Below, one piece after another: positions 26,826 to 43,137 of a stretch of DNA of 64,000 bases (positions within the stretch are counted from its first letter, which is position 1; each line of letters begins with the position of its first letter). Location: assembly GCF_020782875.1 (NCBI RefSeq), contig NZ_JAJGBN010000006.1, forward strand, positions 186,001 through 250,000, written 5' to 3'. The notes below the pieces were generated by a model. The model made no database searches and was not told the DNA's origin. It saw only the letters and a list, made by a program, of their open reading frames with translations. This DNA is from Allomuricauda sp. M10 (GTDB taxonomy: Bacteria; Bacteroidota; Bacteroidia; Flavobacteriales; Flavobacteriaceae). The position numbers and the translations under genes were made by a program.

Positions 26826-29800
26826 ATGAGAGCTAAATTACACCTAGTTTTTTCAATAACCATATTTTTTAGCTGCTTTTGCATTTACGGGCAGCAGGGC
26901 TATTGGAAGAACATTCCCAAGCAATCTACATTAAAGAGCGCGTCCATCAAAGATATGGGCAAGGCGAAAAAAGTCTTCTCCTTGGACCGACAGGTTTTTA
27001 TGGATGAGATGAAGACCTTCGGCACTTCAAAAAGCGCAAACAAGGTTGTCTATCTGCCGGATGGCGAAGGAAACATCATCCCGTTTACCTTAAAGGAAAC
27101 ACCGGTCATGCACCCTGATCTGGCCAAGAAGTATCCCAACATTAAATCATATTCCGGTACTAGTTCCGACGGAAAGTACAAGGTGAAATTGAGCAGCTCC
27201 CAAAAGGGATTGGAGAGTATGATCATCAATCTAAAAAACCATGAACAAACGTTTATGGAACCCATTTCCAACAAAACGGATGCCTATGTTTTGTATGCGA
27301 AAGGAGCAGGTCTCACTTCCAAAGATGATTTTATTTGTGAAACGGTTGAAACGCTTTTGACCACCTCCAAAACCATTACGCCTTTGGTGGATGACCAGGT
27401 GTTGCGCAAATATAGGATTGCCGTTTCCGCTACGGGAGAATATACCCAGGGCAAAGGAGGCACGGTTGAAGACGCCCTCGCAGGGATCAATGCTACGATT
27501 ACCCGCATCAATGAGGTTTTTGAGACCGATTTGGCCGTTACCCTGGAACTCATTGCCAACAATGACCTGTTAATTTTTACAAATCCTAATACAGATCCCT
27601 ACGGAAGCAGCTTGAATTCTGAAGTGCAAGCGACCATAACCTCCATTATTGGGGAGGCCAACTATGATGTAGGTCATTTGTTCCACAAGGTGAACGATCC
27701 CGAATTGAACAACGGTAATGCCGGTTTCATCGGGGCTGTTTGTGTGGATAATAGGAAAGGAAGTGGGTTCTCCGCTTCTTCCACTCCCGAGGGGGATGTG
27801 TTCGATTTGGATTATGTGGCCCATGAACTAGGCCATCAATTTGGTGCCAACCACACGTGGTCGTTTGAATCGGAAGGTACCGGGGTACAGGCAGAACCTG
27901 GGAGCGGAACCACCATTATGGGTTATGCCGGTATCACACAAGCCAATGATGTGGCTCCAAATGGGGACGATTATTATCATTATTACAGTATACAACAAAT
28001 ATCAGATTATTTACAGACCACCTCTTGTGCCCAGGTAACCCCGTTGACCAATTCGCCGCCCGTTCTCTCACCAGTAGGGGATTATACCATTCCCAAGGGA
28101 ACCGCCTTTGTTTTGGAAGGCATTGCAACCGACCCCGATGTGGGCGATGTGCTGTCCTATACTTGGGAACAGATAGATGATGGAGTGGTAACCAACACCA
28201 CTTTCGGGCCAACGAATCCTAGTGGTGCCAACTTCAGGTCGTTACCTCCAAGTGCGGATCCCATTCGCTATTTTCCAAAACTATCGGAAGTTACCCAAGG
28301 CAACTTGACCCAAGTAAACCCAACCGAAAACGAAGCTTGGGAAACGGTATCCGAAATTGAACGCACCTTGAATTTTGCTTTTACCGTCAGGGACAATGCC
28401 TTAGGTGGAGGTCAGGTGGTTTCGGATGTGCTGGCCGTAAACGTGTTAAAGGCGGCGGGCCCATTTGTGGTCACCTCCCAAAGTACCAATGAAGTTTACA
28501 CGGCTGGATCCATTCAAGAAATTACTTGGGATGTGGCCAATACCAATATTCTGCCCATCAACGCACAGTTGGTGGATATTTTTCTTTCTCTTGATGGAGG
28601 GCAAACTTTCCCCATTATTTTAGCAGAGGATGAACTCAATGATGGGTCGGCCAATATTTTATTGCCAGGGGATGCCACGACCGGTGCACGCATCATGGTG
28701 AAGGCCAGTGACAATATTTTCTTTGCAATCAATGCATCCAATTTTACCATTGAACAATCGCAAGTGGTATTGCATTTTGACCAATTGGAATTTGAGGTGT
28801 GCCAACCGGACGACCTTGTGATTCCTTTTGTATATGAAACGTATGCTGGTTTTAACGAAACATCAACCTTTACAGCTGATGTGCCAGCTGGACTTACAGC
28901 CGTTTTTGCTCCTACCAATGCCACGACAAACGATACTGCCGTCAGTTTGACCTTATCCAATACCGGTGGTGTAGCTGCAGGACTTTATGATATTACGGTG
29001 ACCTCCACTTCAGCTTCAGTGACCAAAAGTGTAGTGCTTTCCGTTGCTATTGAGGATACCACTTTCTCGGATGTGGTGTTGCTTTCGCCAACAAATGGGC
29101 AAGGTGGGGTCTCCTTGGATGCCCAATTGTCTTGGGAAGAAAATCCATTGTTCACCCAATATGATGTAGAAGTTTCAACCGATGCCGGTTTTGTCAATGT
29201 AATCGAATCGGCCACTGTTCCTTTCAATTTTTATAAGACGACCAGTTTGCAACAGGAGACTGAATATTTTTGGCGGGTAAGACCTAGTAATGGCTGCGGT
29301 ACAGGAACATTTGGTACAGCCTTTAGTTTCATCACTTCCCAGGTGGATTGCAAGAATATGGAATCCAGTGATTTGCCGATAACCATTTCTTCCACCGGAA
29401 CCCCCACTATTACCACATCAGTGTTTTTCTGGGAAGATCTTCCCATTTCCGATGTCAATGTAAACCTGGAACTGGACCATAGCTATTTGGAGGATCTGGT
29501 AATTACGCTAATTTCTCCTGAAGGTACCCGTGTAGCCTTGCTTTCCAATACGTGTGGGGATCTAAACAATATCAATGCAGTGTTCGATGATGAAGGAGAC
29601 CCCATAACCTGTAATGGTAATCCTGCAGTTTCCGGAACCGTGAGTCCTCTTGGTTCCTTGGCCTCCCTAAAGGGAGAATCCATTTTGGGAGAGTGGATTT
29701 TGGAAATCAAGGATACGGCCGCAAGTGATGGAGGTACCCTGATCGGTTTTTCCTTGGATGTTTGCGTGGAAGGCAGTTACCGACCCGATGCTGACGAGGA

Positions 29801-33977: not shown

Positions 33978-34745
33978 ATGAAAACCATTCAAACTTTAAT
34001 TGCCACTTTTATTTTTCTTTTTTGCCTTAGCTGTAGTTCGGATTCCGATGATGGACGCATCAATGCAGAACCTCAGGGTCTTTGTGCCAATGTAACCGGT
34101 ATCACTGGTATTTATTGGGAATTTGCCCATTCCATTCCAGCTCCTTTGGCGCAGGTCCCGGTCATTAAAAACCCAGGCGGACAGTTTATCCACAGCTTGC
34201 AACCACTGATCGGGTTCACGTACCCAACAGGTTTTTCCGCCTTTGAGGTAACGGATGCCCAGACGGCTACGCTAGGGGTCAATTTGGTACGGAATGACAA
34301 TGCAGTGGTTTTCCGCTGGATTCCGAATACCCAAGCTGCCGGTCAGGTATCTGCAACGAGCATCATTAGCAATGAGATCAATGGGGTTTTTGCCCACTAC
34401 GGATTTTCTGGTACTCCAGAAGTGCTTTGCACCACCACGGCCAACAATACTTTTGAAGGTATTTCGTCCCAGTTCACTGCCCGTTTGCTCCGTTTTGATG
34501 GCATTACGGCTCAAATATGGGTGCGTTCCACCTATGCGGCAGGCGGTACTTTTTCGGCCATTTCAGTGACCACAGCACCGACCGGCGAATATGAAACCCA
34601 GGTTATGGACACCTTTTTCCCCATTAACTTTCAGCTATTTGTGGGAAGGGACGGCACTTTTGTGGATAATGACAACGACGGTGTTCCCGCCAATGAGGAT
34701 CCCGACGATAACGATCCCAATATTCCGAACAATACCGGAGGATAG
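33978..34745 (+). CDS. Surface lipoprotein of unknown function
   Basis: A 255-residue predicted lipoprotein: hydrophobic core and lipobox FLFCLSC, followed by an acidic SSDSDDG stretch of the type that directs Bacteroidota lipoproteins to the surface. The middle is rich in beta-strands and small residues and not recognised. The last 25 residues (DNDNDGVPANEDPDDNDPNIP) resemble a calcium-binding thrombospondin type 3 repeat. Found just after the tRNA gene, with its own terminator. Confidence 0.75.
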   Translation: MKTIQTLIATFIFLFCLSCSSDSDDGRINAEPQGLCANVTGITGIYWEFAHSIPAPLAQVPVIKNPGGQFIHSLQPLIGFTYPTGFSAFEVTDAQTATLGVNLVRNDNAVVFRWIPNTQAAGQVSATSIISNEINGVFAHYGFSGTPEVLCTTTANNTFEGISSQFTARLLRFDGITAQIWVRSTYAAGGTFSAISVTTAPTGEYETQVMDTFFPINFQLFVGRDGTFVDNDNDGVPANEDPDDNDPNIPNNTGG

Positions 34746-34763: not shown

Positions 34764-37700
34764 TTAGTTGTTTGAGTTTGCCCCCGTTTTTGCGGGGGTT
34801 TTCTTTTTACGGAAAATCAGGGCAAGGATTAAAAGCGACATCAAAATAATGGCCCAAACCATCCAGTGTGTAGATTGGTGAAGTTCGATTGGAGCGGCAT
34901 CTCCCATCAACACTAGGCCCGCCCAATATTGTGGGTGCAGGGTGCGCCCTTCGGATTGTTTTAAATAATCCAACTTTGCCAAACGTATGGCCTCGTCCTT
35001 GCGTTTTCCTTTGGAAAGATAGTGGTAGAAAGAAGCCAGGATTTCCGCGCTGGATTTTTCATCGATTTGCCACAAACTGGTCAAAATGCTTTCACTACCG
35101 GCATAGTTGAAGGCGTGGGCCAAGGAAATCATTCCTTCCCCAGGTTGATAGGTAGGTTTGCCAGTCTCGCAGGCGGTTAAAATGGCCAGATTGGAACTCA
35201 AATTTTCATTATAAATTTCGTAGGTGTAGAGATAATTGTCGTTGATGTCGACCATGTCCGTAGTGTTTTTGGCAAAGACCAATCGAGAGAGTTCTGGGGT
35301 CAAGTTATTGGATTCGGCATGGGTAGCAATATGGATGATCTTGTGTTCCTTCGCCATTTTCGAAAACACTTGTTTGGATGCCTTTTCATTCAAAAACGTA
35401 TCGCCATGAAACACTTTTCCGAATTTTTTGGCCAGGTTGTAGCTGAAAGGTTGGGGCAACAAGGTGAGATAGGTTTTGTCCAGATAAAGGGAATCCATGA
35501 TGGCCATTTCATAATCACTCTTCATTTGTGTGCCAAACTCGGGTACAAAAGCGATGAAATTCTTTTCAAATTCCAGAACCTTTTGTTGTTGATCCAACAT
35601 GAACAGGCTATAGTTGTACGAAATATTGTATTTGGTCAAAAGACTATTGGTGGCCAATTGTTTCAGGGAATTGATTTTTTTGGGCGTGAGCAGTTCAAAA
35701 CTCAAATTAAAAAGTTCCCCGTCCGGAAAAATGATGACATTTTCTGTCTTTACCTGTTCTTCAAAAGGTTTCCAAAGCTTTGCATACAATTGGTGCAGAC
35801 AGTCGAACAGTTCATCTTCGGGAATACTGTAATCCGAAATCGAGGAAATACATAGGGTTTTAAGGTTTCCCAAGGGAGTCAATCTTGCCTCACCATCATG
35901 GTACACATAAGCATAGGCATCATCCCCATCCGAAAAATAACGAACCAAAGTGGTGGTTGAGGGAACTTGTTTTTCCAGATTATTAAGAGGCTCCAAAATG
36001 GAGGCGTACCTCATTTTATAGTATTCCGGATATTCTTGTTGAAGGAATGTCAAATGATTTTGCCAAGCGATGGAAAGGGAATCCCACTTTGCGGCATTGA
36101 ACAAGGTTTGGTCTTCTTCTACATCGAAAAATGCATCGATCTGTTCCCGTAGCTGGTTTTCTTGCTCGCGGATTGCAGTGGGGGAAAGTGTATTGTTGAC
36201 AAGGTTAAGCCTGGCCCTGATCCGATTGTAAATGGAGGATTCGTTCAGGGTCATGACCTTTTCCAGATACTTGTCCTCATGAGACTGTTGGTACAATTCC
36301 AGATATACCTTTTTGGCGAAATTGAAGATTTCTCTATTGTTTTCGATAAGATTGGCCACACCTTCTTGGGAAGAAACCAAAGATTTACGTTTCTCTACAA
36401 AAGCTGTTGCTTGATCAACCGTTTTTGCCAAATCCTGAAGATTTTTTAAGGAATGGGGCACTAATTGAAATTTGGATTTTGCCAAATACAGTAAAATCTC
36501 GGGTCGATCGCCCCATTGGTAAAGCCTGTCCTGACTTTCCGCTTCGTTTTGTTGGGTGGGCAATAATTGTTCACACAGCTGAACGGTTTTTTCAAAATCT
36601 CCTTTTAAGTAAGAAATCCGGATTTTGGTGAGTAGTGCCGTTTTGGCCAGAAAACTTTCTGGGCCATAGGTTTTTGCCGTTTCGGAATAGGTTTCTTCAA
36701 TCAGGTTTTCGGCCTTGTTGAACTGATGGTCATCGGCATAGGACTGGGCGAGGTTGAATTGCGCATAGACCACATTTTGACTGAACTCATCGGGACTACT
36801 ATTTTTATAGGCCTCCAACGTTTTTTGATAATTGGTAATGGCCACTGAAATACTCCCATCCCTTTTTTCGAGGTCGCCCAAAACGGAATACAGGTTTGCC
36901 GCGTACAACCAGTTGTCTCCAGGAATGGTCTTTAAGGAAGTTTTTGCCTCTTCCAGATAAATTCTCGCCTTTTCTGGATTGCCGCCATAAAGGTAAGCCT
37001 CTCCCATCATCACCAAAGCACTGAAATATTGAACGGTATTGGGAAGAAGGTATTTTTTGGCATGATGGTATCCCAAAGTGGCCACTTGAATGGCCTTTTC
37101 CTTATCTCCCAAATCGTTGTAAAGACTGCCCAGGTTTCGGTAGGCAATGGAAAGATTGCCATGGACTTTTTCAGTAAGGGGATGATTATGGGTGTTTTGC
37201 AGGAAGGCATTGTAGCTTGAAATGCATTTTAATGTGTACTCCATTGCCGCATCATAATCTCCAGCCGTTTGCTTGGCCAAGGTCCAGTTGCCATAGATCA
37301 CACTCGGAAGGTAATATCGGTACTCGGGGTCTTTGTCGTTGGCGTCAATACTTTTGATGGCTTTTTCAAAATAGAAGTTGACACTATCGGGCTTACCCAT
37401 AAAATGCATGAGGGAAGCCTTGTAGTTCAGCACTCGTGGTGCCAATCGGAATTTGGATCTTGGATGGTTGTTCATCACACGAAGCGCCTTTTCGGTTTGG
37501 TCCATTAATTGGTCAAAATCCCCCAACTTTAAACCAATCTCTCCTAAATAATATTCCGATGTAAGTATGCTTTGTGGATCTTGCATCGCTTTGGCAATGG
37601 TGTTGGCCCGAAGAACCGTTTCATTGGCCTGGATGACATCTCCTTGGTCTATTTGGGCAAGACCCATACCCATGAGGGCCTCAAAACGAACGGAATCTGG

Positions 37701-37991
37701 TTGATGGCTGCTCTCCAGATTTTTCAAAAGTTGTTGGGCCTTTTTAAAGCTGGTTTGGTGGTCTTGCAGAAATTCAATTTTGGCGAGGGGGTACACCAAT
37801 TTGCCCAAATTCAATTGGGCATTTTTTTGACCCTTCGCAACTTCTTTGCCAATAATATTTTGTGCTTCCTGAAAAGCATCAGCGGATATGAGGCTGTCCA
37901 GTTTTTTTAGGGTGGGATGTTGTTGTGAAAATATAGACGTCTGCAACAAAAGCGCAAACATCAAGAGAAAAGATGATAGGCCCTTGTACAT
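34764..37991 (-). CDS. Secreted, membrane-anchored TPR-CHAT protease
   Basis: A 1075-residue protein. A signal peptide (MYKGLSSFLLMFALLLQTSIFS) leads into a long TPR array (about residues 30-560), for example AYRNLGSLYNDLGDKEKAIQVATLGYHHAKK. The CHAT caspase-like domain occupies about 720-1040, with catalytic His891 (HIATHAES) and Cys941 (LTACETGKP). One transmembrane helix follows (WAIILMSLLILALIF) and a short basic tail. The protease would thus face the periplasm, held in the inner membrane. CHAT enzymes cut proteins after activation by bound partners. It is the third gene of an operon, 6 bp after the TPR/anti-sigma gene. Its substrate is unknown; the neighbouring membrane protein is an obvious candidate. 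Confidence 0.9.
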   Translation of the reverse strand: MYKGLSSFLLMFALLLQTSIFSQQHPTLKKLDSLISADAFQEAQNIIGKEVAKGQKNAQLNLGKLVYPLAKIEFLQDHQTSFKKAQQLLKNLESSHQPDSVRFEALMGMGLAQIDQGDVIQANETVLRANTIAKAMQDPQSILTSEYYLGEIGLKLGDFDQLMDQTEKALRVMNNHPRSKFRLAPRVLNYKASLMHFMGKPDSVNFYFEKAIKSIDANDKDPEYRYYLPSVIYGNWTLAKQTAGDYDAAMEYTLKCISSYNAFLQNTHNHPLTEKVHGNLSIAYRNLGSLYNDLGDKEKAIQVATLGYHHAKKYLLPNTVQYFSALVMMGEAYLYGGNPEKARIYLEEAKTSLKTIPGDNWLYAANLYSVLGDLEKRDGSISVAITNYQKTLEAYKNSSPDEFSQNVVYAQFNLAQSYADDHQFNKAENLIEETYSETAKTYGPESFLAKTALLTKIRISYLKGDFEKTVQLCEQLLPTQQNEAESQDRLYQWGDRPEILLYLAKSKFQLVPHSLKNLQDLAKTVDQATAFVEKRKSLVSSQEGVANLIENNREIFNFAKKVYLELYQQSHEDKYLEKVMTLNESSIYNRIRARLNLVNNTLSPTAIREQENQLREQIDAFFDVEEDQTLFNAAKWDSLSIAWQNHLTFLQQEYPEYYKMRYASILEPLNNLEKQVPSTTTLVRYFSDGDDAYAYVYHDGEARLTPLGNLKTLCISSISDYSIPEDELFDCLHQLYAKLWKPFEEQVKTENVIIFPDGELFNLSFELLTPKKINSLKQLATNSLLTKYNISYNYSLFMLDQQQKVLEFEKNFIAFVPEFGTQMKSDYEMAIMDSLYLDKTYLTLLPQPFSYNLAKKFGKVFHGDTFLNEKASKQVFSKMAKEHKIIHIATHAESNNLTPELSRLVFAKNTTDMVDINDNYLYTYEIYNENLSSNLAILTACETGKPTYQPGEGMISLAHAFNYAGSESILTSLWQIDEKSSAEILASFYHYLSKGKRKDEAIRLAKLDYLKQSEGRTLHPQYWAGLVLMGDAAPIELHQSTHWMVWAIILMSLLILALIFRKKKTPAKTGANSNN
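34781..34808 (+). terminator. Terminator inside the opposing CHAT gene end
   Basis: CCCCCG (34781-34786) pairs with CGGGGG (34793-34798), followed by TTTTCTTTTT. It terminates the plus-strand lipoprotein gene, while the same bases encode the last residues of the CHAT protein on the minus strand. Confidence 0.85.
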
Positions 37992-37997
37992 AACCGA

Positions 37998-38726
37998 TCA
38001 GTCCTTAAGTTTTTTTATCAATTCCCGACTTTTTTCATCTTTGGCTTTTTCAAGACTTTTTAGGGCTGCATGGGTGTCGCCATTTTTGAGATGGGCAAGT
38101 CCTTGGTAAAAGGCAGCTTCGTTTTTAAATGAAGCGTTATCGTCTTCTACCACCAGATCAAAAAAGGAAATGGCCTTGGTTGCCTCACCGTCTGCCAAAT
38201 ACGCGGAACCCAAAAAGTAATTGAGGGTATCGTTGTCCTTTTTCTGTGCCCATAACTGTTCCCATTTGGTGATGGCGGTTTTGTAATGGCCCTGTTTATA
38301 ATCCACCATGGCTTCATAAAAGTTGTAATTGCTGCTATTTCCCATAACGGTAGGAAGCCCTGGGTCTGCAGTAAAATATTCTTGGTAGAGTTTTTCATTA
38401 GGATTTTTTTGGTAGAGGAGCCATAGGCCCATGGCAACCAAAACTGTAATGACCGCGGCAATTTTATAGATGGGGAAGGTGCGGCCTTTTATTGTTTTTT
38501 TGGATGGCGATTCCAATCCGGTATGAAAGGATTCCATCTGTTCACGAAGCGAAGCTTCCTCAACACTATGGAACAAGGCCTTGAATTCTTTGAATTCCTG
38601 CATCAATTGGGCGTCTTGCTCCAAATTTTCCAAAAATTGGGAACGTTCCCGATGGTCCATTTGGGCCATCAGATACCTTTCAAAGGTTTCTTGGCGTTCT
38701 TGTGATATGTAGGAGCTATCGTTCAT
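37998..38726 (-). CDS. Membrane TPR protein, probable anti-sigma factor
   Basis: A 242-residue single-pass membrane protein. Residues 1-75 are cytoplasmic, helical and charged (RYLMAQMDHRERSQFLENLEQDAQLMQEFKEFKALFHSVEE), like the sigma-binding part of Bacteroidota anti-sigma factors (no zinc HxxxCxxC is visible). The transmembrane helix (IYKIAAVITVLVAMGLWLLY) is at about 87-106. The remaining 135 residues carry two or three TPR motifs (EAMVDYKQGHYKTAITKWEQLW) and would lie in the periplasm. It overlaps the upstream sigma factor gene by 11 bp and precedes the CHAT gene by 6 bp. The anti-sigma role is inferred from topology and gene order. Confidence 0.75.
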   Translation of the reverse strand: MNDSSYISQERQETFERYLMAQMDHRERSQFLENLEQDAQLMQEFKEFKALFHSVEEASLREQMESFHTGLESPSKKTIKGRTFPIYKIAAVITVLVAMGLWLLYQKNPNEKLYQEYFTADPGLPTVMGNSSNYNFYEAMVDYKQGHYKTAITKWEQLWAQKKDNDTLNYFLGSAYLADGEATKAISFFDLVVEDDNASFKNEAAFYQGLAHLKNGDTHAALKSLEKAKDEKSRELIKKLKD

Positions 38727-39291
38727 TGTTCTTGATTTGAAGGCTTAGGCTTCTCAGCTTTTCCATGCAACGGTATTTTTGGTTGCGCGCTGAATGGGGA
38801 GCCATTCCCATCTCTTTTGAAATTTCTTCCATGGACCTCCTTTCAAAATAAAACAACTGAAGGAGGGACCTGCAATTTTCACCCAATTGATCAAAAGCAG
38901 TCTGCATGGCACTTCTGTTCTGTTCTTCCTCAAGAATGTCATCCTTGGGCATGGGGTCATCCTGCACCACCTTTAAAAAGGATTGTGAATCCGTGTTGAT
39001 GGTTTTTTTATACTTCGATGATCGTAAAAAATCGGTCCATTTGTTCTTGGCTATGGTAAAAAGATATCCGGAAACATTTCCTTCCAAAAACCTTTCTTCC
39101 TTGATGTTCCTCCAACAGGCCACAAATGCCTCCTGGAAAGTATCCTTGGCCTGATCTTCATTACCATTGTTCTTTAAGATATGGGCACGCACTTTTGGAT
39201 ACACTTCTTGGTAGATTGTCTGCATGGTTTCCGAATCGTTTTTTCTGAAACCACTGACTGCTTTGTCTACCTTTTGGTGTGTATTCCCCAT
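38716..39291 (-). CDS. ECF sigma factor of RNA polymerase
   Basis: A 191-residue sigma-70 family ECF factor. Region 2 (about 20-100) includes AKDTFQEAFVACWRNIKEE and GNVSGYLFTIAKNKWTDFLR, the core-binding and -10 recognition helices. Region 4 (about 125-185) includes LGENCRSLLQLFYFERRSMEEISKEMG and the recognition helix MAPHSARNQKYRCMEKLR. There is no extra C-terminal domain. The start codon is inside a 14-bp inverted repeat. It is the first gene of a three-gene operon with the probable anti-sigma and the CHAT protease. Confidence 0.92.
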   Translation of the reverse strand: MGNTHQKVDKAVSGFRKNDSETMQTIYQEVYPKVRAHILKNNGNEDQAKDTFQEAFVACWRNIKEERFLEGNVSGYLFTIAKNKWTDFLRSSKYKKTINTDSQSFLKVVQDDPMPKDDILEEEQNRSAMQTAFDQLGENCRSLLQLFYFERRSMEEISKEMGMAPHSARNQKYRCMEKLRSLSLQIKNNER

Positions 39292-39359: not shown

Positions 39360-41897
39360 TCAATTTTTTGCCCTTAAGTACACCATGACCTTTGCATAGC
39401 CTTCCACCGAACCATATAGACTTTCCATGTTGGCCAAAGTATCTTCATTGGTATTAGGTCCCACATTGAATCCCGATCCTCCACAGTACACTGTATAGTT
39501 AGGTTCCATGGACTCCCCGGGTTCTAGGCTCCACGTATTGGAAGTATAGGAACACGATGGAATCAGATCTGGGATCCGCTCAACGATTCTCATACTTACT
39601 TGTTGCACTTCATATCCATCCGGGATGACCGCCTCGGATGAGTTCCATTTCCACTCACTCCAATATTCCCAATGGGTATAATCAGGGTTTCCCGTAAGTG
39701 GAGAGCTTTTTTTGTCATAGCCTACCTTTGTATAATAGATGAGGACATCATCCCTGTTTTCTATATTTATAGTAGCTTCAATTTCATCAACTAATGTCAA
39801 TTCTGAATCATCCCCGTTAAATAGGGCTGAAGTACTGGAATAGATTTTGGCTGAAACCACTTCAGTGGCATTTGCAGTTTCCCGATCAAAAGTTTCATAG
39901 GATACTGAGAACCCGTCTTCCGAATATGTTGTAACGCTAATGTCAGCACCATTGAGTTTCCCGTAATTTCCCTGTGTTTGCCAAACGACTTTATAGTACA
40001 TTCCGTTACTATTGGTAAGTGGCGCATTATCGGCGTCCACAACCCTCATGGTTAGTTTTGAATCACCGTCTATGGTAATCCCATCGGGCCGAATCTTGTA
40101 TTTTGTGGGACTAATGTTCACTATGGTCGAATCTTTCCCAACAAGAGCACCGAGAAGACCCCCTTCCTCTTTTATATATACCTCTACATAGATGCTGTCA
40201 TGGGCATTTTGGGGCAATGTTCCGTAGTCAGGGTTGCTTTTATATGTGATTTGGTTCGTTCCCGAATTTTCTATGAAGTCACCAAATTTTTCAGTGGTTA
40301 TCCATTTATATAGGTAATTGCTGGTTGTGGTCTGATCAATATCCGGAGAAGTCGCCTTATATTCCACTTGTTCGCCAAGTACGATGCCCTTTTCATATGG
40401 GGAGATACGCACTTTGCTGCGGCTTACAATGGATTCGAATTGCTCGAGTTGAGAGGATTTATAGATATCATCGACAATACGATAGCCGTCAACACTGGTA
40501 AGGATGGCATTGGTGATCGTTAGGGGAGCAGCCAATTTCCCCTTTAAATCTCCGACTGAGGCATATATGCCTTGCTTTTGCAACGGTTTAACGAAAACTT
40601 CTTCGAAAAACCCTTCAATACCTACAACATTGCCAATGAAAGCCTTTGTAAACTCATATAGAGCAGTAATAAATTCTCCCTCATCAATGGCGTCGAGGGC
40701 TCCTGGTGTAGATGCCAATACTGCATTTAATAGCTCTACGCCGGTGTCGACATTTATGGAGGCAATATAAGTGTCCGCTATGTCGCCAACACCTAACAGG
40801 GTTGTAATGCCTGGAATCATAAAATCCAGAAGAAAGGTCTCCAATTGCATTTTCAATAGGGCATCACCTTCTTGTTTGGTATGAATACGGGTGCTTTGTT
40901 TGCCGGGACCCAGTACCCTTATCGCATATTTAGAAGCGTCATCATTATCCAAAAGTTCCAGTTCTATGGGGCCATTACTTTTGAACCCAACATCCGTATT
41001 ATTACCATGACCAATGGCCACATCAATGACGCCGCCTTGTATGGAGGTAATACCGTTTATGGCAGAAATATCCAGTTCAAGGTTTGGTTCAAGAGAGGTT
41101 TCATAACTGGTGATGACTTGATCCAGATCCAATAGTGTCTCAAATTCCCCATTTTTTTTCACGGCCACTTTGTAGAAAAAGGCACGTGCCCTCCTTCGGT
41201 AATAATTGAGGACGTCCACACTTAAAACATTGTCACTATCCTGTACCACCTTAATGCCACTTTTAGTGTCGTTGTTGGGTATGAGCACTTTGTTTTGGAT
41301 ATCGATTACCTTTTTGTTGTTCACTAACTTACTGGCCGCATCGTCTAACCAACTCCTGAAAGTGTCTGACTTGAGTAGTAGGGCATCGGTTTTGTACATT
41401 TCCCCCAATTCGGTGACAAAGGGGTCAATTTCAGCCAGGTCCCTGAATTCATTCAGGAATTTTTCCTTTAACTCGGGCAATCTGAACACTGTTCCAAACC
41501 GGAAAAACAGGGAGGCCTCAAAAGTTGATCGGGCATCTAATATGGGGTGTTCTTTGGAGATGAACCCCATGAGAATGATTTCACCATCGGTGTTCCTTAA
41601 ATAGACCAGGCTTTTTTTGTCCTTTAGGACATTTATACTCGCCGTAAGATCTGATTTTATTTGATATTCACTCAGTACAGTCTCGACGTAGGTGTTTGAA
41701 ATATCCAAACTCATCCCTTCTGGCAGTTCAATTTGGATGTCGATCTCCTCGTATGTCAGGGAAACACTGGAGCCATTGTCATCATCTGTTTGCGAGGTGT
41801 CGTCATCAGGTGGAATGGTGATGTCATCTTTGGAACTGCATCCCATTGTCATACTGAGCAGCAGGATAAGAAAAAGGAATTTGTATGTATTTTTCAT
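39360..41897 (-). CDS. Large lipoprotein of unknown function
   Basis: An 845-residue predicted lipoprotein (MKNTYKFLFLILLLSMTMGC, lipobox MTMGC, then an acidic Asp-rich spacer). I do not recognise the family. Residues about 60-200 are helical with charged surfaces. A middle part (270-470) has many Ile/Val/Asp residues, and the last 300 look like two or more beta-sandwich (Ig-like) modules. The C-terminus has four Cys in a PSCSYTS..VYCGGSGF region, possibly a disulphide pair. It precedes the ECF sigma factor by 68 bp on the same strand and could belong to its regulon or be an independent surface protein. Confidence 0.72.
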   Translation of the reverse strand: MKNTYKFLFLILLLSMTMGCSSKDDITIPPDDDTSQTDDDNGSSVSLTYEEIDIQIELPEGMSLDISNTYVETVLSEYQIKSDLTASINVLKDKKSLVYLRNTDGEIILMGFISKEHPILDARSTFEASLFFRFGTVFRLPELKEKFLNEFRDLAEIDPFVTELGEMYKTDALLLKSDTFRSWLDDAASKLVNNKKVIDIQNKVLIPNNDTKSGIKVVQDSDNVLSVDVLNYYRRRARAFFYKVAVKKNGEFETLLDLDQVITSYETSLEPNLELDISAINGITSIQGGVIDVAIGHGNNTDVGFKSNGPIELELLDNDDASKYAIRVLGPGKQSTRIHTKQEGDALLKMQLETFLLDFMIPGITTLLGVGDIADTYIASINVDTGVELLNAVLASTPGALDAIDEGEFITALYEFTKAFIGNVVGIEGFFEEVFVKPLQKQGIYASVGDLKGKLAAPLTITNAILTSVDGYRIVDDIYKSSQLEQFESIVSRSKVRISPYEKGIVLGEQVEYKATSPDIDQTTTSNYLYKWITTEKFGDFIENSGTNQITYKSNPDYGTLPQNAHDSIYVEVYIKEEGGLLGALVGKDSTIVNISPTKYKIRPDGITIDGDSKLTMRVVDADNAPLTNSNGMYYKVVWQTQGNYGKLNGADISVTTYSEDGFSVSYETFDRETANATEVVSAKIYSSTSALFNGDDSELTLVDEIEATINIENRDDVLIYYTKVGYDKKSSPLTGNPDYTHWEYWSEWKWNSSEAVIPDGYEVQQVSMRIVERIPDLIPSCSYTSNTWSLEPGESMEPNYTVYCGGSGFNVGPNTNEDTLANMESLYGSVEGYAKVMVYLRAKN

Positions 41898-41946: not shown

Positions 41947-43137
41947 TCAATTGGTATTGCCCACTTTTACCCATTCCCTGTTGTTGAGGTTGATATCGCC
42001 ATTGGGGGTATAAAAGAGGTCGTTGTTTTGAATGTAGTTGCCGTCACTATCCATCCAGTATTCCGTGGACCCTGCATTTACTTGGTAATTGTTTCCGGTG
42101 AGGGGATTGTACACGGTTTCCTGTTCGTTGATCATGTTCAGGAATTGGCGTTGGCCCGTATCACTACCAGCACCAAAATTGCGGTTCATAAACGAGGCAT
42201 GGTTGGCATCCTGTGCCGCTGAAATGGCCCGCATGTTTTCTTGGTGCGCATTGAAAGCTGCCCATCGGTCGTTCATACGCTGTTGGTGCTGTTGTGCGGC
42301 GATCTGCATTTTTCGCTGGTTTTCCATGGCACGTTGTTGGTTCAATTGGGTCATGTATTGTTTCCATTGGGGATTTTCCTGTGTGCCCACGGTCGATTTA
42401 TGGAGTTGGTCAAGAGTCGCTTCAAACTGTCCTTCATCCACAAAAACATAATCCGTTGTATAGAGCCACATGGTCATCATCTCATTGTTCATGAGCGGTT
42501 GTTGCAGTGCTATTTTTACAATTCGTGCCAAGGCCTTCTGGCCGTTTTGGTTCTTCCATTCCGTGGCGGTGTACTCCAAATACCCTTGTCCGAACCCATT
42601 TTCCTGCATTTTTTGTTTCACATAAGCTTCGTCATCGGGCATGGAACGTTGACGTACAAAGGTGTATCCGTTTTTTTGCATGCGGGGTTCCACGTCTTCC
42701 CTAAAAAGTTGTTGGTTTCCTACCATGGGCCGGATCATGGAGGCCATACCGTATTGGGACATCATCTGCGTTAACTGTGGACTTTGATACGATACATGAA
42801 ACTTGGTGGGTGTGTTGAAGGTTTTCAAGTGATTGGGCCCATCGATCTGCATAAGAAAATCAGGAATTTTTTGATCTATGGTGTAGATGGGTTTGGAAAT
42901 CACTTTCCAGTTAGAAGGATATTCAGTACTCTGCACTACCATTCCTGTGCGGGCATCGCGCAGTTCATGGGTTTTATTTCGGCTGGTTTGGAAAAATGGC
43001 TCTTTTTGATCTGATGTGCCGTTGTTCCAAGCACTCTCCTCGTCAAGTCGCTCATTATAGGTGGAGCTATTGGGGTCTTGTGGGTTTTCCTTGCAGGCGA
43101 AGGCAAGACAAATGAAGGTAAAAATCAGTGTTCTCAT
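41947..43137 (-). CDS. Lipoprotein of unknown function, Gln/Met-rich
   Basis: A 396-residue predicted lipoprotein (lipobox CLAFAC, mature Cys followed by KENPQDPNSS). The middle is a helical, glutamine- and methionine-rich stretch (roughly 240-310: YMTQLNQQRAMENQRKMQIAAQQHQQRMNDRW) that probably makes a coiled coil. The C-terminal end has repeated Asn/Asp/Tyr-rich loops (GNNYQVNAGSTEYWMDSDGNYIQNND). I cannot name a family. It stands 49 bp upstream of the larger lipoprotein gene on the same strand. Confidence 0.75.
   Translation of the reverse strand: MRTLIFTFICLAFACKENPQDPNSSTYNERLDEESAWNNGTSDQKEPFFQTSRNKTHELRDARTGMVVQSTEYPSNWKVISKPIYTIDQKIPDFLMQIDGPNHLKTFNTPTKFHVSYQSPQLTQMMSQYGMASMIRPMVGNQQLFREDVEPRMQKNGYTFVRQRSMPDDEAYVKQKMQENGFGQGYLEYTATEWKNQNGQKALARIVKIALQQPLMNNEMMTMWLYTTDYVFVDEGQFEATLDQLHKSTVGTQENPQWKQYMTQLNQQRAMENQRKMQIAAQQHQQRMNDRWAAFNAHQENMRAISAAQDANHASFMNRNFGAGSDTGQRQFLNMINEQETVYNPLTGNNYQVNAGSTEYWMDSDGNYIQNNDLFYTPNGDINLNNREWVKVGNTN

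Follow-up and report, generated by a model that had tools for sequence, protein, structure and literature searches.

Genes and domains at the locus

The window analysed in this study is a 64,000-nucleotide stretch of the genome of Allomuricauda sp. M10, in which three adjacent minus-strand genes encode an extracytoplasmic function (ECF) sigma factor, a membrane protein with tetratricopeptide repeats (TPRs) that is a candidate anti-sigma factor, and a TPR protein with a CHAT protease domain that is predicted to be secreted and membrane-anchored. The sigma factor gene (38716..39291, 191 residues) overlaps the anti-sigma gene (37998..38726, 242 residues) by 11 bp, and a gap of 6 bp separates the latter from the TPR-CHAT gene (34764..37991, 1075 residues). 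A total of 28 sigma-70 region-2 matches and two CHAT genes were found in the genome of this strain, and the two kinds of gene are adjacent at this locus only. The second CHAT gene (L001, G000:C22:138876-142847) contains an open frame of 979 residues, and no sigma gene was observed in the stretch read around it. A sequence-only reading of the window had described the three minus-strand genes with their overlap and gap, their domains, the His891/Cys941 pair and the C-terminal membrane helix, all of which were found as described from open reading frames, Pfam matches and hydropathy.

The sigma protein was matched to region 2 (Pfam Sigma70_r2, E 3.3e-11) and region 4 (r4_2, E 4.1e-6), without a Pfam match to region 1 or 3 at E 1, and to TIGR02937 (E 4e-24), and is thus an ECF sigma factor by its domain content. 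The 242-residue protein begins with a presumed cytoplasmic, sigma-binding head (residues 1-80, 38487..38726, minus strand as are all features of the three genes given below), consisting of helices 9-19, 25-37 and 39-71 in the AlphaFold2 (AF2) model, for which the mean predicted local distance difference test score (pLDDT) is 86.9. A transmembrane helix at residues about 86-105 (38415..38471; 86-104 by hydropathy, 86-105 in the model) is succeeded by a juxtamembrane helix (109-117), a loop (118-130) and the predicted periplasmic TPRs (residues 131-241, 38004..38336), which are indicated by Pfam TPR_16 (139-196) and TPR_2 (203-228), by the model helices from residue 131 onwards and by Foldseek matches to TPR proteins. 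By a simple hydropathy rule, a membrane segment was found in 154 of 156 homologues.

The identification of this protein as an anti-sigma factor, already proposed in the sequence-only reading, is backed by matches to NCBIfam anti-sigma models. The window protein itself matches NF052375 weakly (E 8e-4, under the model cut-off) and the same model is matched by 25 of the 46 homologues scanned at E <=0.01 (best 1.2e-12), while six of the scanned homologues match another anti-sigma family and six match zf-HC2 at E 0.1. Region 11-112 of the anti-sigma profile also matches a second place in the genome of the strain (G000:C24:26214-26519), beside a sigma gene at 26843-27040. The adjoining ECF gene, the single helix and the N-terminus resembling anti-sigma models support its assignment as a transmembrane anti-sigma factor, for which inhibition of the sigma factor is predicted. 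The head was not matched to a known anti-sigma fold, as the first 50 Foldseek matches of the anti-sigma model are mostly TPR or designed repeat proteins.

In the 1075-residue protein, TPRs were matched by Pfam in addition to a CHAT domain at residues 731-1031 (34899..35801; PF12770, E 2.8e-41), which scores 142 bits against a curated cut-off of 24. The presence of the dyad formed by His891 (35319..35321) and Cys941 (35169..35171), both conserved in 130 of 130 aligned partners, identifies it as a CHAT peptidase for which proteolysis is predicted. A signal peptide is predicted from hydropathy at residues 1-22 (37926..37991), and the N-terminus is likewise hydrophobic in 123 of 132 homologues. 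At the C-terminus, hydropathy indicates a membrane helix at residues about 1042-1063 (34803..34865), which starts about 10 residues past the end of the CHAT domain and was found in 129 of 132. Both hydrophobic ends occur together in 120 of the 132 CHAT proteins of at least 800 residues according to the same simple rule. A cytoplasmic location, which the sequence-only reading had named as an outcome that would count against its proposal, was rejected on the basis of these two predicted segments, and the CHAT domain is accordingly predicted to lie outside the cytoplasm.

The AF2 model of the CHAT protein has a mean pLDDT of 84.6, with low confidence in the loop that follows the catalytic cysteine (943-948). 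When the whole CHAT alignment was used to search the Protein Data Bank (PDB), TPR-type entries alone were found among the best 60 of 296 matches, and the CHAT part was therefore searched separately. Its relatives by sequence are DdvA (E 3e-8, the best) and Csx29 (E about 5e-6, weak). DdvA (PDB 8rot, 8rw5) is also the best Foldseek match of the model, which superposes on Chaetomium thermophilum separase (5fby) with a Z score of 25.8 and a root mean square deviation of 2.8 over 299 residues.

Recurrence of the gene pairing in Bacteroidota

The CHAT gene was found in five records of the Flagellimonas/Allomuricauda group at 57-89% identity, and CHAT matches occur in 24 of 71 genomes of the genus (E 1e-20) and in 82 of 249 genomes of the family (E 1e-30). 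Sixty loci were picked by hand from the best places in the genus and family searches, with at least one full-length family match (G346) omitted. An anti-sigma gene was observed beside or near the CHAT gene in 56 of these 60 loci; two of the four loci lacking it (L060 and L082) lie at a contig end. The two genes are co-directional in 41 of the 56 paired loci, convergent in 14 and divergent in one, and the 3' ends of the convergent genes frequently overlap. The description of the system as a single operon therefore holds for the co-directional loci (41 of 60) and not for those in which the CHAT gene is convergent or divergent. Since the pairing survives three gene arrangements, it argues for a functional link as opposed to operon inertia.

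The pairing was also examined from the side of the anti-sigma gene. The 60 best-ranked new anti-sigma places in a profile search of 296 Bacteroidota genomes (L098-L157) have a CHAT gene in the stretch, which reaches as far as about 10 kb in each direction, in 46 cases, and a CHAT gene is present at 29 of the 40 best-ranked places in previously unused genomes from a search of 345 genomes of the class (L158-L197). Both the CHAT-fetched set and L098-L157 favour the family that served as the query. The sequence-only reading had looked to conserved gene order in relatives as a test, and the association is indeed kept, with the partner present at 56 of 60 CHAT loci and 75 of 100 anti-sigma loci. The association of the sigma/anti-sigma pair with the CHAT gene is beyond chance and recurs across many Bacteroidota families.

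For the comparisons below, the partner of an anti-sigma protein is the nearest CHAT in every case. The 161 loci considered (the window and L038-L197) include four without an anti-sigma gene, 25 without a CHAT gene and two with unusable CHAT pieces (L099 and L160), leaving 130 pairs, among which near-duplicates are common in the clade of the window.

Several loci depart from the common layout. The CHAT gene of L056 (G307:C7), counted above as co-directional, is split into two open frames of 613 and 327 residues with sigma and anti-sigma genes that seem intact, and L066 contains one sigma/anti-sigma pair followed by two tandem full-length CHAT genes. The large genomes G834, G762, G1027, G1028 and G1045 each hold eight anti-sigma places, the maximum scored, and 17 CHAT-matching places were found in G834, so that many parallel systems appear to exist per cell.

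A candidate cleavage motif and the CHAT positions that track it

A conserved motif is present between the membrane helix and the TPRs of the anti-sigma protein, with a PDPGLPTVMG-like form in the clade of the window and a P-x-x-R-G/S-like form in most of the others. In the window this gives a candidate cleavage site PTVM|G at residues 125-129 (38340..38354), located in the model loop 118-130, in which Met128 would be the residue preceding the cut (P1). As aligned, P1 is arginine in 63, methionine in 44 and another residue in 10 of 117 anti-sigma proteins, and in the 114 proteins having the pattern it lies a median of 24 residues past the membrane helix (10-90% range 22-29).

The identity of this residue was found to track two positions in the CHAT partner. 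In the first set of 102 usable pairs, all 53 Arg-type anti-sigma proteins have a partner with Glu853 and Asp978, whereas the partners of the Met-type proteins have Glu853 in none of 44 cases and Glu978 in all 44; the five other pairs lack the Glu853/Asp978 combination. The rule that P1 is arginine if and only if both acidic residues are present was recorded before the held-out loci were fetched, and of the 28 held-out pairs 24 obey it when the alignment is taken strictly as it stands. These comprise 14 with arginine and the acid pair and, without the acid pair, seven with methionine, one with leucine (L167) and two with other residues (L178 and L195). Three further pairs (L162, L186 and L193) fit when the raw sequences are read (TVRA, ARG and SRG, each with the acid pair), which raises the count to 27 of 28. 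An alignment-free pattern, written together with the list of small non-Arg clades after the held-out results had been seen, is concordant in 26 of 28 held-out pairs and in 128 of the full 130. The second of its misses, at L180, is an artefact of the pattern in which an 'RA' match lies downstream of the PMS site, and this locus was relabelled non-Arg in the column scoring, identity and same-genome counts. With L180 so relabelled, Glu853 and Asp978 are present in 70 of 70 Arg-type pairs and the combination is missing in 59 of the 60 others.

The contrast between methionine and arginine was set aside as sole evidence because many CHAT columns differ between the two clades. The small non-Arg clades were used to score 383 CHAT columns for their tracking of P1, and with nine such rows positions 853, 978 and 939 rank first, second and fourth. 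The rule had itself been formed with the help of five of these nine rows; the four held-out ones have Leu, Asp, Leu and a gap at 853, Asp, Pro, Glu and Pro at 978, and Ala, Gly, Gly and Gln at 939. The nine CHATs share 29-36% identity with their nearest Arg-type CHAT. Glu853 and Asp978 are kept by all of the forty Arg-type CHATs whose identity to the closest other Arg-type CHAT does not exceed 45%. When the loci were assigned to their genomes by hand, ten genomes proved to hold both types, and in 29 of their 30 pairs the CHAT type agrees with the neighbouring anti-sigma protein, which speaks against confounding at the level of species.

In the window, the three positions are Leu853 (35433..35435; Glu in Arg-type CHATs), Glu978 (35058..35060; Asp in Arg-type) and Thr939, two residues before the catalytic cysteine (35175..35177; Ser in Arg-type and Asp where P1 is lysine). 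Residue 853 is placed by the model in the helix after the first strand of the domain (helix 848-860, between strands 810-816 and 864-867), and residue 978 opens helix 978-993 after strand 968-972. According to PMC4626109 and PMC4850288, proteases of clan CD bind P1 from three places, namely the helix that follows beta1 (gingipain Asp163, MALT1 Asp365), the far end of beta4 by the catalytic cysteine (MALT1 Asp462; PmC11 Asp177, where Cys179 is catalytic) and the loop or the beginning of the helix past the next strand (caspase-3 Arg207, MALT1 Glu500, separase). Residues 853, 939 and 978 presumably correspond to these three anchor places of the P1-binding (S1) pocket, as judged from the model. 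An equation of residue 978 with the column of the separase S1 aspartate was dropped, as that aspartate is found four positions beyond the covarying column, and the claim is thus limited to the same structural element. Csx29 aligns with a serine at the 978 column; PMC9729208 and PMC10028731 report that its separase-type aspartate is replaced by Lys670 and that, in the two versions studied, the cut in its substrate follows Leu407 or falls between residues 427 and 429.

Two variants of the motif were observed in small groups. In L132 and L137, P1 is lysine and the CHAT partner has an aspartate two residues before the cysteine, as in C11 peptidases, which resembles a rewired S1 pocket. L124, L131 and L135 form a small clade whose linker has a methionine followed by Asp or Ala; residue 853 is Ser or Ala there, and the usual His887 is replaced by Gln or Asn.

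The covariation may be explained without proteolysis if the CHAT protein binds the anti-sigma factor and coevolves with it as a scaffold or pseudo-protease, the motif then being a binding epitope whose release or capture would control the sigma factor with no cleavage involved. The position of the motif just before the first TPR helix, where it could be a docking turn, would suit this explanation, as would the low model confidence of the loop past the catalytic cysteine. We nevertheless regard it as unlikely given that histidine and cysteine are both kept in every one of the usable partners and that the top covarying columns correspond to S1 anchor places of related proteases.

Cleavage by the CHAT protein outside the membrane remains the preferred explanation, and a number of observations weigh against it. 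On strict alignment four of the 28 held-out pairs do not fit, and L164 is a true mismatch in which a TVMG motif is paired with a Glu/Asp CHAT, the latter being 6.7 kb off at the edge of the stretch. The pocket was assigned by secondary-structure element and not by measured distance. L067 and L095 are CHAT loci away from contig ends and yet without the sigma/anti-sigma pair, and at 25 of the 100 anti-sigma loci, some of them at contig ends, the stretch contains no CHAT gene. Independent switches are few: the tree gives counts of 7 and 5 changes, and among the pairs on well-supported branches two change in the same way, none in the opposite way and two show no difference, which is not significant in a sign test (p 0.5). 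Finally, a search for CHAT in 16 genomes with a CHAT-less anti-sigma locus gave no match in six, and arginine is kept at P1 in three of these (L102, L133 and L149).

The last two points would suit an explanation in which control of the CHAT gene by the sigma factor is what keeps the neighbourhood conserved, the real substrate being another envelope or cell-death protein and the Arg/Met motif a structural feature that covaries by ancestry. The many columns at which the clade of the window differs from Arg-type CHATs fit such a regulon, and so do the putative lipoproteins and the PKD-domain protein described below, which are likewise conserved neighbours. On the other side, the two columns of 383 that track P1 best across the small-clade rows are S1 anchor places, the pairs in genomes holding both types follow their own neighbour, and P1 is neither arginine nor methionine at three of the six loci in CHAT-less genomes (L106, L126 and L119). 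As L106 and L126 come from one genus and L102 and L133 also share a genus, the evidence from CHAT loss is weak and two-sided. We consider this regulon explanation improbable on balance.

As P1 tracks the presumed S1 positions of the CHAT encoded next to it, the CHAT protein is most likely a dedicated site-1 protease for the neighbouring anti-sigma factor, with the position of the site-1 cut in the periplasm predicted from the covariation. The sequence-only reading had proposed such a cut on the periplasmic side, and it is now well supported in silico by the P1/S1 relationship.

The proposed switch, its surroundings and known systems

In Escherichia coli, sigmaE is released by way of the membrane anti-sigma factor RseA and the proteases DegS and RseP, a route that PMC10028731 also names. 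The locus in the window quite probably encodes an envelope-to-transcription switch of a comparable kind, in which the exported TPR-CHAT protein would cut the anti-sigma factor between its membrane helix and its TPRs and so free the sigma factor. The TPR anti-sigma protein would tether the ECF sigma factor at the inner membrane, and the TPR-CHAT protein, a member of the separase/caspase clan, would be exported by its signal peptide and kept near the membrane by its C-terminal helix. A periplasmic or outer-membrane cue may then activate the CHAT protein, possibly through the TPRs, which the sequence-only reading had proposed as sensors and, more tentatively, as the contact between the two proteins, and the extended loop would be cut after Met128 here and after arginine in most distant relatives. 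The TPR part would depart after the cut, leaving a membrane stub as a potential substrate for the site-2 protease RseP, after which the sigma factor would be freed. This arrangement resembles RseA in having a membrane anti-sigma factor with an expected cut just outside the membrane, and one M50 peptidase match was found in the genome of the strain. It differs in the kind of enzyme expected at site 1, a cysteine protease of clan CD that is encoded with its own predicted substrate, and not a PDZ serine protease.

If this is true, a caspase-clan protease would join the DegS type as a site-1 protease in sigma signalling, and would do so across many families within a major phylum. Such CHAT proteins would gain a substrate and a predicted cleavage site, and their pairs would provide a natural series of proteases and substrates with switched specificity, as well as a possible origin of the protease/sigma arm in CRISPR Craspase. 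More tentatively, and with rather less than even confidence, we suggest a class of caspase/separase-family site-1 proteases across Bacteroidota, whose S1 pockets are tuned to the P1 of their partner (Arg, Lys, Met or Leu) and thereby insulate paralogues, with Csx29-Csx30-sigma and the DdvA type as later recruitments from what would be an older module for envelope signalling.

Three putative lipoproteins, all read by eye and without a Pfam match, are encoded around the triple. Upstream of the sigma gene lie the minus-strand genes of an 845-residue protein (39360..41897), conserved in 17 loci, and of a 396-residue protein (41947..43137), conserved in 24, both counts including the window. A 255-residue protein, conserved in 19 loci including the window, is encoded on the plus strand (33978..34745) and is convergent with the CHAT gene. 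Because two conserved genes of this kind precede the triple on the same strand, the transcription unit may hold five genes; the 396-residue protein is possibly encoded by its first gene, and the 845-residue protein is possibly an operon member or a regulon gene. All three lipoproteins may be part of the regulon or partners of the switch.

A different neighbour, a PKD-domain protein, shares the stretch with the CHAT gene in 16 loci of several families (L104, L105, L107-L109, L111-L113, L116, L118, L123, L127, L155, L178, L179 and L195). The one representative scanned matches DUF7619 and DUF7849 and, weakly, an outer-membrane protein barrel. It is a guess that this protein, with its possible outer-membrane barrel, acts as the outer sensor of that variant.

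The system was described as a candidate undescribed one in the sequence-only reading. Sigma release through proteolysis is an established principle, and what appears to be new in this variant is a caspase-clan enzyme as the putative site-1 protease, together with a predicted cleavage site that co-evolves with it. The literature searched, which lacked most subscription papers, gave papers on Craspase, the neighbourhood study PMC8195603, one paper in which DdvA is mentioned and others whose titles suggest no relation, but no account of such modules in Bacteroidota, and novelty is thus not proven; the word undescribed needs qualification, as Craspase (PMC10028731) and DdvA (PDB 8rot/8rw5) are functional or structural precedents.

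In Craspase, as described in PMC10028731 and PMC9729208, the genes for the TPR-CHAT protein Csx29, an ECF-like sigma factor and the sigma inhibitor Csx30 lie side by side, and Csx29 cuts Csx30. The likeness to the window lies in a TPR-CHAT gene next to genes for an ECF-like sigma factor and its inhibitor. However, Craspase is switched by Cas7-11 with target RNA according to these sources, whereas here the CHAT protein is predicted to be exported and membrane-anchored, unlike a cytoplasmic TPR-CHAT, and the inhibitor is predicted to be a transmembrane TPR protein. As Craspase unites the same three components (PMC10028731, in the part available), the locus could be a phage-defence or cell-death module in which infection triggers the CHAT protein and the sigma factor drives a defence regulon. 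We think this very unlikely. The three proteins have no PADLOC match at E <=1e-3, the single match among nine neighbours is PsyrT (3.6e-5), to a gene read by eye as a ribose-phosphate pyrophosphokinase, no direct-repeat family was found within 24 kb, and the predicted topology is extracytoplasmic. Membership in a CRISPR or type III-E system was rejected on the same repeat result and because neither the three proteins nor the nine neighbours gave a Cas-like PADLOC match at E 1e-3, the presence of a Cas7-11 model in PADLOC being unconfirmed.

DdvA of Myxococcus xanthus is likewise a transmembrane anti-sigma factor, and its chain is named a CHAT domain-containing protein in PDB entries 8rot and 8rw5; the part of PMC4374960 that was available describes DdvS as active once DdvA is inactivated. 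Judging by the PDB titles and chain length, DdvA combines both roles on one chain, whereas two separate genes encode them here. Separase (clan CD, family C50) shares the combination of a TPR-like superhelix with a caspase-like domain and has arginine at P1, according to the accessible text of PMC10317155. The protein described here differs in being bacterial, in its predicted secretion and membrane anchoring, in its predicted anti-sigma substrate and in the methionine at P1 in the clade of the window.

Gene neighbourhoods of a caspase domain (EACC2) with ECF sigma and TPR (DUF1822) genes were noted earlier in PMC8195603. The available part of that paper centres on EACC2 and TRADD-N, does not contain CHAT as a whole word and describes no anti-sigma cleavage site. 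The Bacteroidota membrane anti-sigma factors of PMC13088901 also control an ECF sigma factor, but in the available portion of that work they span from the outer membrane to the cytosol, whereas the anti-sigma factor of the window is predicted to be a single-pass protein that acts with a partner protease.

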